From the NCBI RefSeq assembly GCF_013285555.1, contig NZ_JAAXLT010000092.1, positions 1 to 64,000 of the forward strand: a DNA stretch of 64,000 nt, written 5' to 3'. The first letter of the stretch is position 1; each line of letters opens with the position of its first letter. The stretch comes from Candidatus Cyanaurora vandensis (lineage in GTDB: Bacteria > Cyanobacteriota > Cyanobacteriia > Gloeobacterales > Anthocerotibacteraceae). The notes under the pieces were generated by a model, which made no database searches, was not told the DNA's origin, and saw nothing but the letters and a program-made list of their open reading frames with translations. Below, piece after piece: positions 24,435-28,233 of the stretch. Both the position numbers and the translations under genes were made by a program.

Positions 24435-25301
24435 ATGATGGAAGTCTTCGCTCAGCTATGGCAGCAGTACCGGCAGGCGGTGCCCCAAGTCCCGCTCATT
24501 GAGGATGTCCTCCGCGCTGAGGGGGAGCTTTGGGTGGAGGACCATGTGGCCCTGCGGACCCTCCCCGGCCCCGAAACCGGAGCGCACATCCTGCAAGCGA
24601 TGTTTGCGTTGTTGGGTTATCGGCGGCGCGATGACCTGTACTTTGCCGATAAACAATTGCGGGCGTTTTGGCTGGAGCCGCCGATGGTATCGGGACTTGA
24701 TAGTTGCCAGACGGCCCCCAAGGTTTTTATTAGTGAACTCATCCCCGACCAATTCTCCCCGGCTTTCCAGGAAGTTTTGTATAAGTACACCAGCACGGTT
24801 CAAGCTACGCCCTTGGCCCAACTGCAATCCGCTGAGGATATAACCGAAACGCTCTTGATGTACTTGAGCGGTCGGCCCTGGCAACGGCCCCAGTATGCCG
24901 ACTACCAATTACTGTTGCGCGAGAGTGAATATGCGGCTTGGACCCTGGCTTTTGGGCATCGGGTGAATCATTTTACGGTCAGTGTGCATTTGATGAAACG
25001 GTTTGCCGGACTAGTGGATTTTAATAAATTCCTGACGGAACAATTGCAGATTCCGATGAATACCCAGGGCGGTCTGATTAAAGGTTCACCCCAGTGCGGG
25101 CTGGAGCAGAGTGCAACCCTAGGGGCGAAAAGTAGGGTGGAGTTCCAGGAGGGACTTTATGCGTTGCCCTACGCCTTTGTGGAATTTGCTTTTCGCCATC
25201 CCCTGCCTGAGAGGAAGCCCGATGGTCGTTGGGATTCCTATTACCAGGGGTTTGTGGTCAGTAATGCCGACCGGATTTTTGACTCCACCAATGTCCACTG
25301 A
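24435..25301 (+). CDS. DUF1338 (2-oxoadipate dioxygenase/decarboxylase-like) protein
   Basis: A 288-residue protein of the DUF1338 family. Likely metal ligands are visible: His in EDHVALRTL, His in HRVNHFTVSV and Glu in YAFVEFAFR. Characterised members (HglS, plant FLO7) are Fe(II) enzymes that convert 2-oxoadipate to 2-hydroxyglutarate in lysine breakdown. The cyanobacterial substrate is not established. ATG 24435 and ATG 24438 are both possible starts. The 3' end overlaps the next gene by 11 bases. Confidence 0.85.
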   Translation: MMEVFAQLWQQYRQAVPQVPLIEDVLRAEGELWVEDHVALRTLPGPETGAHILQAMFALLGYRRRDDLYFADKQLRAFWLEPPMVSGLDSCQTAPKVFISELIPDQFSPAFQEVLYKYTSTVQATPLAQLQSAEDITETLLMYLSGRPWQRPQYADYQLLLRESEYAAWTLAFGHRVNHFTVSVHLMKRFAGLVDFNKFLTEQLQIPMNTQGGLIKGSPQCGLEQSATLGAKSRVEFQEGLYALPYAFVEFAFRHPLPERKPDGRWDSYYQGFVVSNADRIFDSTNVH

Positions 25302-25965
25302 ACCTGTACCCTACCGGGTCCGCATCAGTAACCGTGCCCGCCATGTCAACCTGCGCCTCACGGTTCAAGAAGGCTTAGTTGTAGTGATTCCTAGGGGTTT
25401 TGACCTAAAACATATCCCCTCCATCCTCCAAAAGCGCAAGCAGTGGATCTTAGCTGGCCTGGGTCGTTTAGCCGTCCAAACTCCGCTGGGAAGCTGTCCC
25501 CTACCCGAGCAACTAGTTTTACCCTTGTTGGGAACTTGGACGGTGGTTTACGGTGAGCGCGGCGAAAAACCGAATCAACTCCTGATTCCGACCACTGAAC
25601 GTGCCCCTAGTATCGCCCACCTTAAATCTTGGTTGGCCCACCAAGGCCGTCTGCACCTTATCCCCCGGCTCCAACAAATCAGTCATGCCACCGGGTTAAC
25701 CTTCACCCAAGCCACGGTCAGGGGCCAGAAGACGCGCTGGGGTAGCTGTTCGCGCCAACACCACATCAGCCTCAACTACCAATTACTCTTCCTCACATCC
25801 GATCTAGTGCATTACGTCTTGGTCCACGAACTCTGTCACACCCATGAAATGAATCACTCCCCCCGCTTCTGGTCCCTGGTGGCAAGTTACCTGCCTGACC
25901 ACCAGGACTACAAGGCCCGACTACGCCAGTCTATTCACCTCATCCCCGGTTGGTTGCATGATTAG
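25291..25965 (+). CDS. YgjP/DUF45-type zinc metallopeptidase
   Basis: 224 residues from ATG 25291. The C-terminal half has the gluzincin-like signature VHELCHTHEMNHSPRFW (HExxH plus a downstream His), and before it QKTRWGSCS, both typical of the YgjP/M48-like DUF45 family. The N-terminal half (RISNRARHVNLRLTVQEG) is the usual beta-rich part. It starts inside the end of the DUF1338 gene, so the two are co-translated. The substrate is unknown. Confidence 0.87.
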   Translation: MSTEPVPYRVRISNRARHVNLRLTVQEGLVVVIPRGFDLKHIPSILQKRKQWILAGLGRLAVQTPLGSCPLPEQLVLPLLGTWTVVYGERGEKPNQLLIPTTERAPSIAHLKSWLAHQGRLHLIPRLQQISHATGLTFTQATVRGQKTRWGSCSRQHHISLNYQLLFLTSDLVHYVLVHELCHTHEMNHSPRFWSLVASYLPDHQDYKARLRQSIHLIPGWLHD

Positions 25966-26135
25966 CGTTATGGTGTTCGCCATAGTTGTTTCAAACAGTT
26001 ACAAAAACGCTAAAAAGTCTAAAGATTATTACACGAGTTCACGGAGGCTATTCACTGTGACCATAAGCTCTACCCACCTCGCTCATAAGCTACACTAAGC
26101 ACACTTGAACAGCAATGCTAGGAGAGTTGGTCATC

Positions 26136-26612
26136 ATGCCTGAACAAGAAACGGAAACTTTTACCTACTTTCCCCCTGATCTCACCGTGCAGGGAGCGGA
26201 CGGGACTATTGTTTTAGCCGTTAAGGTCAGAACGCGACTTATCCATAAAGAAGCTGAGGTCCTTGAACAGCTTGCTAGTTATTTACAATTTATGAAGGAG
26301 AAGCATAACAAAAATATCCCTTATGCTATGTTTGTAGACCGTCAAAAAATTAACATTTATTCCTGGAGTGAGGGACCACTCTCTGCTCCGTTACTCACAC
26401 TTGAAACGAGTGTTGTCTTGGGAGAATACGACCCGGAGTATAAACAAACAGACCAACAAATATCAGAGTATTATGCTGAGACCTTAATCGAAGCTTGGTT
26501 AAAAGATTTAATTGATGAATGGCAGTCAGAGAACCCTCCCTACAAAGTTGAACTTAAGGAGCAAGGCATTCTAAAAAGGCTGAAACAGTCCGTTGGGAGC
26601 GTGATTTTATGA
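26136..26612 (+). CDS. Nuclease-fold-like protein coupled to a PIN gene
   Basis: 158 residues from ATG 26136, which has AGGAGAG nine bases upstream; an in-frame ATG at 26115 lacks one. The early part (PPDLTVQGADGTIVLAVKVR) resembles the D..(E)xK core of the PD-(D/E)XK-type proteins common in cyanobacteria, but the Glu position is Val (AVKVR), so catalysis is doubtful. A C-terminal acidic helix follows (YYAETLIEAWLKDLIDEW). The gene is AT-rich, unlike its neighbours. The stop overlaps the ATG of a PIN-domain gene (ATGA at 26609). The pairing suggests a toxin-antitoxin-like or defence module, but this is inference. Confidence 0.55.
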   Translation: MPEQETETFTYFPPDLTVQGADGTIVLAVKVRTRLIHKEAEVLEQLASYLQFMKEKHNKNIPYAMFVDRQKINIYSWSEGPLSAPLLTLETSVVLGEYDPEYKQTDQQISEYYAETLIEAWLKDLIDEWQSENPPYKVELKEQGILKRLKQSVGSVIL

Positions 26613-27102
26613 TTTTTCTTTATGTCGAGACAAACTTCTTAATCGGTCATGCTAAATATCAAAAAGAAATGTAAAGTTTCAGCTTGACACTAATAACTTA
26701 GCTAAAGTAGTGAGCGGCATGAAACTTTCAGAACAAGCACAAAAAATTAGTACAGACTTAAATCTAGTTAATATTGAGAGCGGCAGGATTTTTGAAAATG
26801 TCCAAGAGCGATTAGATATAATTTTGAAATGGACTTTAGGTAACGCTATCGTGATTCCTTTCGATCCTCTTACTGCCACTAAAAGTCTTAATCAGCGTTA
26901 TATGAAAGAGCCGACGGATAACTTGATTTTACATACGATTTTAGCTCATGCTCGTACGAATCTATCAGAGAGGAAAGTTCTGTTAACGAATAATTACACC
27001 GACTTTTTTAAAGAACAAATAGTAACAGAGCAACTTGACTTGGTAGGCATTCGTAAATATGTAACTAAAATTGACCAATTTCTGAATTGGTCTAAGCTCT
27101 AA
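26609..27102 (+). pseudogene. PIN-domain ribonuclease gene, disrupted
   Basis: The start (MIFLYVETNFLIGHAKYQK) is a typical PIN N-terminus with the first acidic residue, but a stop follows at 26672-26674. In another frame, open from about 26660 and containing a usable start at 26710 or 26719, the protein resumes and ends with the PIN C-terminal block (KEPTDNLILHTILAHAR, then LLTNNYTDFF). The spacing is too short for a whole PIN domain, so an internal deletion with a frameshift is likely. PIN proteins cleave RNA and are often VapC-type toxins. AT-rich like its partner, which suggests a transferred and inactivated module. Confidence 0.7.
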
Positions 27103-27206
27103 CTGCAAGATGTAAAGGTTTAGCTGTAATGATCAGTTATCAGGATGCGGGGACTCAAGGACCCCTCTCCCCACTGTGGTAGGATGGCTCAAATTGGGTG
27201 AAGGGT

Positions 27207-28233
27207 ATGGAGATTCAGCAAAAATTGTTGGTGCTGGGAACGAATTGTCAGGACCTCTCGGCGGCGGTTTGGACTGAGCATCTCTGGCTGGCTTCCGATG
27301 AGACGATGAGCCTGGAACGGCTGTCCCCCTCACCCACGGGTTATGACCAGCCCCAACAATTTCCCTTGACTGAATATTTGGATTTGGTGGACGACACCAC
27401 CGGGGCGGGGGTGGAAGTAGATATTGAGGGATTGGACTACCAGGACCACTATTTATGGTTAGTCGGCTCCCATGCCACCAAGCGCAAACGAGTCCGCCCA
27501 GACCGCAGCGATCTGGAGAATATCCGTCGTCTTACCAAGATTGAAGCCGACCCCAACCGTTACCTGTTGGCCCGGATTCCTTTAGTTGACGGAATTTTGT
27601 ACAAAACCTGTCCCCACCCCAGCCAGTTAGGGGAACAACTCACCGCTGCTGCCATCGGACGGACCAAACTCCTCACCCTCTTGGAAGAAGACCCCCACCT
27701 CGGACCTTTTTTGACGGCTGGGATTCCTGGCAAGGATAACGGGTTTGATGTCGAGGGCTTGGCGGTAATGGGAAACAAAGTCTGGCTGGGGCTACGGGGT
27801 CCAGTGCTACGCGGTTGGGCCATCTTACTTGAACTGACCGTGGAAGCGCGGGGACCGGGGCTTTTACGCTTTCGGCGGGGTGCAGACGGACTCGCGTACC
27901 GTAAACATTTTCTAGACCTTGGCGGCTTGGGTATCCGTGAACTATGTCGCGACGGGGATGACCTCTTGATCCTGGCAGGACCCACGATGATCCTCCAGGG
28001 GGTTATTCGTGTCTTCCGGTTGGTCAAGGGTTTACTTTTGGCTGAACCCAGTCTTATTACTCAGCAACCGGGCCGACTAGAAGTCCTCTTTGAGACCCCC
28101 CCCTGCCGAAAAATACGACCGGGCCGAAGGCATTGCCCTGACCCCAGAGGGATTGCTCGTGGTCTACGATGGGCCTGCACCAAGCCGATTTAAGGCTGAG
28201 GGCCAAATATGGGCGGACCTATTTACGCTCTAG
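27207..28233 (+). pseudogene. DUF3616 protein, frameshifted at a C run near the 3' end
   Basis: From ATG 27207 the protein matches the cyanobacterial DUF3616 family: an N-terminal DLSAAVWTEHLWLASDE, then VDIEGLDYQDHYLWLVGSHA, and DVEGLAVMGNKVWLGLRGP. At the run of eight C residues (28096-28103) the frame changes. The read product ends at 28193 with unrelated residues. One base fewer gives the expected ending (PAEKYDRAEGIALTPEGLLV then DGPAPSR) to a TAG at 28231. The family has a beta-propeller-like pattern and no known reaction. The C run is a typical site for a sequencing slip or for phase variation. Confidence 0.82.

Follow-up and report, generated by a model that had tools for sequence, protein, structure and literature searches.

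A 64,000-nt stretch of DNA (the window) carries, on its forward strand at 26136–27102, a gene for a protein with a degenerate nuclease motif and, overlapping it, a PIN ribonuclease gene that is broken by an internal deletion. In other genomes, the homologous genes lie side by side, and where the pair decays it is nearly always the PIN gene that is lost. The window copy is best explained, and probably so, as the decayed form of a VapBC-like module in which a PD-(D/E)XK-fold protein would be the likely antitoxin, the toxin is dead and its partner has been orphaned.

The gene pair and its surroundings

The window is part of a 94-kb contig in an assembly of 3.07 Mb. The two genes occupy ~1 kb of AT-rich DNA between a gene for a YgjP-like metallopeptidase (25291–25965) upstream and a DUF3616 gene (27198–28193) downstream. 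The sequence-only reading had described the module as AT-rich compared with its flanks, and 26001–27000 indeed has the highest AT content of any kilobase in the window, its GC content of 39.0% being the minimum of the 64 one-kb bins and the next lowest value 47.8%. Searches for terminal inverted repeats around the AT-rich island and for a convincing promoter site ahead of the first gene found neither. In a genome of the same family (G001), the YgjP-like gene is present and a DUF3616 gene was not found, hence an empty site could not be read in relatives. The DUF3616 gene of the window appears to change frame close to its 3' end, where eight C stand in a row (28096–28103, within the region 28090–28233), with an apparent continuation, EKYDRAEGIALTPEGLLVVYD, in another frame, which is either a real break or an assembly indel error.

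The first gene (gene 1; 26136..26612, + strand) is intact (open reading frame 26136–26609, stop codon 26610–26612). Its product, 158 aa long and with a likely PD-(D/E)XK fold, is probably the antitoxin or partner of the pair. The stop codon of gene 1 and the ATG of the PIN gene (26609–26611) share the sequence ATGA at 26609–26612 (+ strand), as had been claimed, and this 4-nt overlap, read from the sequence, is the geometry of translational coupling. The same overlap, listed as a gap of -3, is frequent among homologous pairs.

Interruption of the PIN gene

The PIN gene was said to be interrupted near its start, and this is the case. An N-terminal stub (26609..26674, + strand) of 21 codons, MIFLYVETNFLIGHAKYQKEM, ends at a TAA at 26672 and keeps the first catalytic acid (VETN), and the rest of the gene lies in another frame (26662..27102, + strand; 26662–27099 before the stop). 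This remainder, KRNVKFQLD...LNWSKL*, retains the Asn motif (TNN) and, in PTDNLIL, the third acid, and gives a profile match to positions 69–199 of 204 (E 3e-19). Against Pfam PIN_12, the window fragment gives E 0.002 and 18.9 bits, below the curated cut-off of 32 bits.

The nearest intact PIN examined (L013) served as the reference for the break. The stub MIFLYVETNFLIGHAKYQ matches residues 1–18 of L013, and the remainder, from KRN onwards, matches L013 from residue 56 through to the C-terminus, in an alignment that runs gapless for ~90 residues. The window copy lacks residues 19–55, which amounts to a net ~112 nt, not a multiple of three, and the deletion junction with its change of frame is placed approximately at 26659..26668 (+ strand). 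A point frameshift as the cause was rejected, since the gapless downstream alignment leaves a gap of 37 residues relative to L013. Mapped onto an AlphaFold model of the intact homologue L119 (pLDDT 96.5), the missing part corresponds to a helix (19–26), a core strand (33–37) and the start of a long helix (39–70) that includes E43. This residue is the second catalytic acid and is deleted in the window copy. The PIN protein of the window cannot be an active PIN nuclease, and a profile search of the same genome found no second PIN of the family.

That the assembly produced the break as an artefact, and that this organism has an intact pair, is very improbable. This alternative could draw on the division of the assembly into 234 contigs and on the apparent DUF3616 frameshift, which hints at indel errors, but a loss of 112 nt inside a 94-kb contig is no homopolymer error, the genome holds no other copy of the PIN gene, and PIN genes have been lost in a comparable way elsewhere, in complete genomes among others.

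Fold and motif of the upstream protein

The match of the window gene 1 product to a Pfam family is weak (HSDR_N_2, E 0.048). The same family (PF13588) is matched by 23 of the 48 members of a set of gene 1 homologues, with a best E of 4e-7, and further restriction-type families are matched by others of this set. A match of the gene 1 profile to BpuSI, a restriction enzyme, has E 1e-3. An AlphaFold2 model of the window protein (pLDDT 88), set beside the strand-strand-strand-helix-strand core of the superfamily, has strands at 16–19 and 25–31, a helix at 39–57 and strands at 63–67 and 71–76, and its top match in a Foldseek search is a putative restriction endonuclease (E 4e-3) with a low TM of 0.31. 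As judged by the sequence matches, the order of elements in the model and the low-TM structural match taken together, a PD-(D/E)XK fold is likely. The resemblance to PD-(D/E)XK proteins that had been proposed agrees with the weak family matches and the restriction-endonuclease match, but the structure, at this TM, is no proof of it.

In a gapless alignment with its homologues, the window protein reads D15...K30-V-R32 where the relatives read D...E-V-K. The sequence-only reading had placed a Val at the Glu position, which fails, as it requires a shift of one residue; the position holds Lys (K30), and Arg (R32) stands at the Lys position. Its claim of an inactive nuclease site stands, with both Glu and Lys replaced (K-V-R for E-x-K), and the D...(E/D)xK residues of an active PD-(D/E)XK nuclease are not all present in the window protein. 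In a tree of gene 1 sequences, which was built without the motif columns and is poorly resolved in places, the window protein forms a long branch by itself; such a branch would fit relaxed constraint and alone is not evidence of it.

The pair in other genomes

Relatives were sought in a set of 390 cyanobacterial genomes and in a genome scan in which each species was represented once; the two are not independent, as their genomes overlap. Among the 390 genomes, 49 had matches to a gene 1 profile that included orphan copies, and 63 to an intact-PIN profile, the latter count including a more distant PIN clade. Every intact PIN in this set has gene 1 directly upstream, as do all 80 PIN relatives retained in the scan, which are mostly from cyanobacteria, with a few from Planctomycetota, Binatia, Methylococcaceae and Anaerolineae assemblies. 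Trichocoleus sp. FACHB-40 and Microcoleus are examples of organisms with an intact PIN of the family.

In a third, more distant PIN clade, a nuclease-fold gene was directly upstream in all 18 sampled loci, and L115 is another case. The 18 upstream proteins begin with a D..VE(V/I)(K/N) motif. This clade (L223–L240, L115) is present in many cyanobacteria; its PINs are ~212–235 aa, and the PD..EVK protein upstream is mostly well kept. The check that had been suggested, a search for homologous pairs, gave co-occurrence at 80 of 80 scan loci and 18 of 18 loci of the third clade, contrary to the outcome named as refuting, in which the homologues would never be found together.

Both genes are adjacent on a conjugative plasmid of Sphaerospermopsis kisseleviana NIES-73, the sole plasmid match, where they lie behind a transposase and are both annotated ‘hypothetical protein’. 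Phage or viral relatives of the pair were searched for and not found. In Rhizonema and Iningainema, two to three nuclease-fold/PIN modules form tandem arrays (L134:2465–4731; L153:2465–5515), the neighbours in which differ in the state of the motif, with QTQ next to EVK in one array and QAQ, EVK and KVQ in the other.

Conservation of the two proteins

Across 111 distinct PINs, the active-site positions are kept almost without exception (E7 in 111, E44 in 108, D147 in 110 and N172 in 110). The canonical ExK is kept in 88 of 131 gene 1 sequences, the others having D, K, Q or A at the Glu position or R, Q, T, E, N or G at the Lys position. On the gene 1 tree, the kept and lost states of the motif require 22 parsimony changes, and 24 of the 34 gene 1 rows that have lost the motif still adjoin an intact PIN. 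In the 48-member set, Y98 and W121 are invariant and D15, L95, G144, L145 and G152 nearly so; the E and K of the motif are not among them, and most of the conserved positions (L95, Y98, W121, G144, L145 and G152) fall in the C-terminal half. This pattern suggests that selection retains the catalysis of the PIN and the C-terminal half of the gene 1 product and, in this branch, not gene 1 catalysis. D..ExK is kept in two thirds of the gene 1 relatives and in nearly all members of two sister clades, and catalysis may therefore matter in those proteins.

The retention of the motif in most homologues is what would be expected of a two-effector defence pair, in which the product of gene 1 is, or once was, a nucleic-acid sensor or DNA nuclease, the PIN protein serves as an RNase, both strike invading nucleic acid, and the decay is the ordinary loss of defence genes. 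Both folds are common in defence, and the patchy spread (49 of 390 genomes) and the plasmid copy are also in keeping with such a role. Against this stand the several cases in which gene 1 has lost its motif and the adjoining PIN is intact, the strictly one-sided decay in the 390-genome set described below, the lack of phage or viral relatives, and the outcome of a PADLOC search, in which neither window protein had a match at E up to 1. On balance, a defence pair is unlikely.

One-sided loss of the PIN gene

In the 390-genome set, both genes are intact at 45 loci, gene 1 is intact with the PIN broken or absent at 16, and the reverse does not occur. A two-sided sign test of 16 against 0 gives 3e-5 if the kinship of the loci is ignored; as the loci are related, these are not 16 independent events and the test is a guide only. 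A further caveat on the count is that orphan copies were part of the gene 1 profile.

The PIN gene has been lost in several ways. In a relative of the same order (L003), an insertion sequence lies in the PIN gene and gene 1 is intact, the insertion of ~1.1 kb, with a transposase-like pair of open reading frames, splitting the PIN gene at L003:1932–3432 (G005:C1:4347067–4348785). A frameshift accounts for the loss at L017, internal deletions with both ends kept are found at L021, L045 and L108 as well as in the window, the PIN is truncated at L049 and L054, and it is absent behind gene 1 at L005, L023, L029, L034 and L042. Where a PIN was seen and gene 1 was not, the PIN is just a fragment (L103, L104 and L106) or lies at a contig end (L105). 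A possible exception is L194, where a frameshift lies in gene 1 and the PIN is intact; this locus belongs to a metagenome-assembled genome that was met in the genome scan and is outside the 390-genome set. L127 was considered as a second exception and rejected, since gene 1 reads as intact there and has a strongly diverged N-terminus.

In several genomes of one family (L023, L026, L028 and L029), an orphan gene 1 precedes the same ABC-transporter substrate-binding gene, and the copy at L026 already has a stop codon. The dN/dS value was 0.48 for L023–L029, both without a PIN, versus 0.26–0.45 against the PIN-bearing L037, a comparison with too few sites to give a conclusion.

PIN proteins may also be ordinary RNA-processing enzymes. 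A non-toxic pair of this kind, in which the gene 1 product guides the PIN RNase, as its adaptor, to the substrate and both genes are lost when unneeded, would account for the strict linkage and the conserved PIN acids, as these suit any pair of an enzyme and its partner. An adaptor should not persist without its enzyme, yet gene 1 stands alone at 16 loci and the PIN at none, and the patchy distribution and plasmid carriage also speak against this explanation, which we consider quite improbable. The one-sided decay and the drifting motif together argue against both the defence and the RNA-processing alternatives.

A proposed toxin-antitoxin module

The sequence-only reading had put forward a toxin-antitoxin or defence pair with a lost toxin. 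The favoured form of this, a VapBC-like module whose toxin has been lost, is supported by the linkage of the genes, their order and overlap, the one-sided decay, the conserved PIN acids set against the drifting gene 1 motif, and the presence of the pair on a conjugative plasmid. Under this proposal, the PIN protein, which belongs to the Pfam PIN_12 group, would be an RNase toxin, harmful unless bound by the gene 1 product. The latter most likely would bind and restrain the PIN protein, its own nuclease activity being dispensable, and its translation from the coupled mRNA would come first, the antidote being made before the toxin. The toxicity of the PIN protein, its binding and neutralisation and the direction of dependence are thus the proposed part of the model. 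Gene 1 could lose its active site because its job would be binding, and could outlive the toxin because losing gene 1 first would be lethal. In this genome, the internal frame-shifting deletion would have inactivated the toxin, and its partner would now be an orphan.

We regard it as a serious possibility, though one advanced tentatively, that the pair represents a widespread, undescribed class of PIN toxin-antitoxin modules, the antitoxin of which is a nuclease-fold protein that has repeatedly lost catalysis. A nuclease domain would then have been turned into a nuclease inhibitor, with cyanobacteria at all stages from an intact motif to none. If true, a nuclease-fold partner that is kept after the death of the toxin and whose active site can be lost freely would restrain a PIN RNase in a different way, and a function would be suggested for two protein sets, most members of which are annotated ‘hypothetical protein’. 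The natural pairs with intact and with degenerate motifs form a simple set for testing. The window copy itself is a relic and matters mainly as a further case of toxin loss.

Comparison with known systems

PIN toxins are among the commonest prokaryotic toxins, and the antitoxin is in most cases a small protein that binds DNA. The module resembles VapBC in having a PIN ribonuclease as the second gene with its partner directly upstream and overlapping, in its one-sided decay and in its carriage on a plasmid. The PIN model is closest to the VapC structures 3zvk and 5ecw, and the PINs of the family keep the conserved acids (108–111 of 111), the second of which is lost in the window copy. Unlike in VapBC, the partner, ~160 aa long, has a likely PD-(D/E)XK fold and is not an RHH, AbrB, Phd, HTH or DUF433 protein, and the PIN is ~200 aa with two long helices (39–70 and 76–113) and a starting E-T-N in place of the usual D. 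No Pfam antitoxin family was among the tabulated matches of the 48 gene 1 homologues; a single Arg_repressor row (E 0.07) is at chance level. A recognised DNA-binding domain of the VapB kind is lacking in gene 1, and on this defining point the module departs from VapBC.

With respect to Pfam families, all 38 intact PIN homologues scanned match PIN_12 (PF16289) at E <= 0.1, with a best E of 4.8e-18, and L119 scores 58.1 bits, above the curated cut-off of 32 bits. PIN_12 differs in being a domain family without a stated function or partner, and its linkage to gene 1 is an addition made here. HSDR_N_2 (PF13588), the N-terminus of type I restriction HsdR, is the closest sequence relative of gene 1. 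Gene 1 differs from it in that the protein is stand-alone and of 150–190 aa, its constant neighbour is a PIN gene and not restriction-modification subunits, and its motif is often lost.

Uma2/DUF820 (COG4636) and other cyanobacterial PD-(D/E)XK families share the predicted fold, and the DUF820 structure 3ot2 is a weak fourth in the Foldseek ranking (E 0.07). According to the part of a survey that concerns them, Uma2 proteins occur solo or in paralogous cassettes and are rarely linked to known antitoxins (PMC2701414). Gene 1 differs in being tied to PIN genes, and no Uma2 sequence match is among those listed. For PIN-associated antitoxins, section 9 of the same survey gives DUF433, COG2886, COG2880, COG1753 and MerR-like proteins and no nuclease fold, and in the sections bearing on this subject PD-(D/E)XK is mentioned solely for the solo Uma2 family (PMC2701414). 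A table for Synechocystis 6803 has several PIN genes beside ‘hypothetical’ partners (PMC4963859). A published description of a nuclease-fold/PIN pair was not found in the literature searched, which excluded reviews of the PIN and PD-(D/E)XK superfamilies. PIN toxin-antitoxin modules themselves are already known; what would be new, as far as that literature shows, is the linkage of a PIN gene to a nuclease-fold partner.
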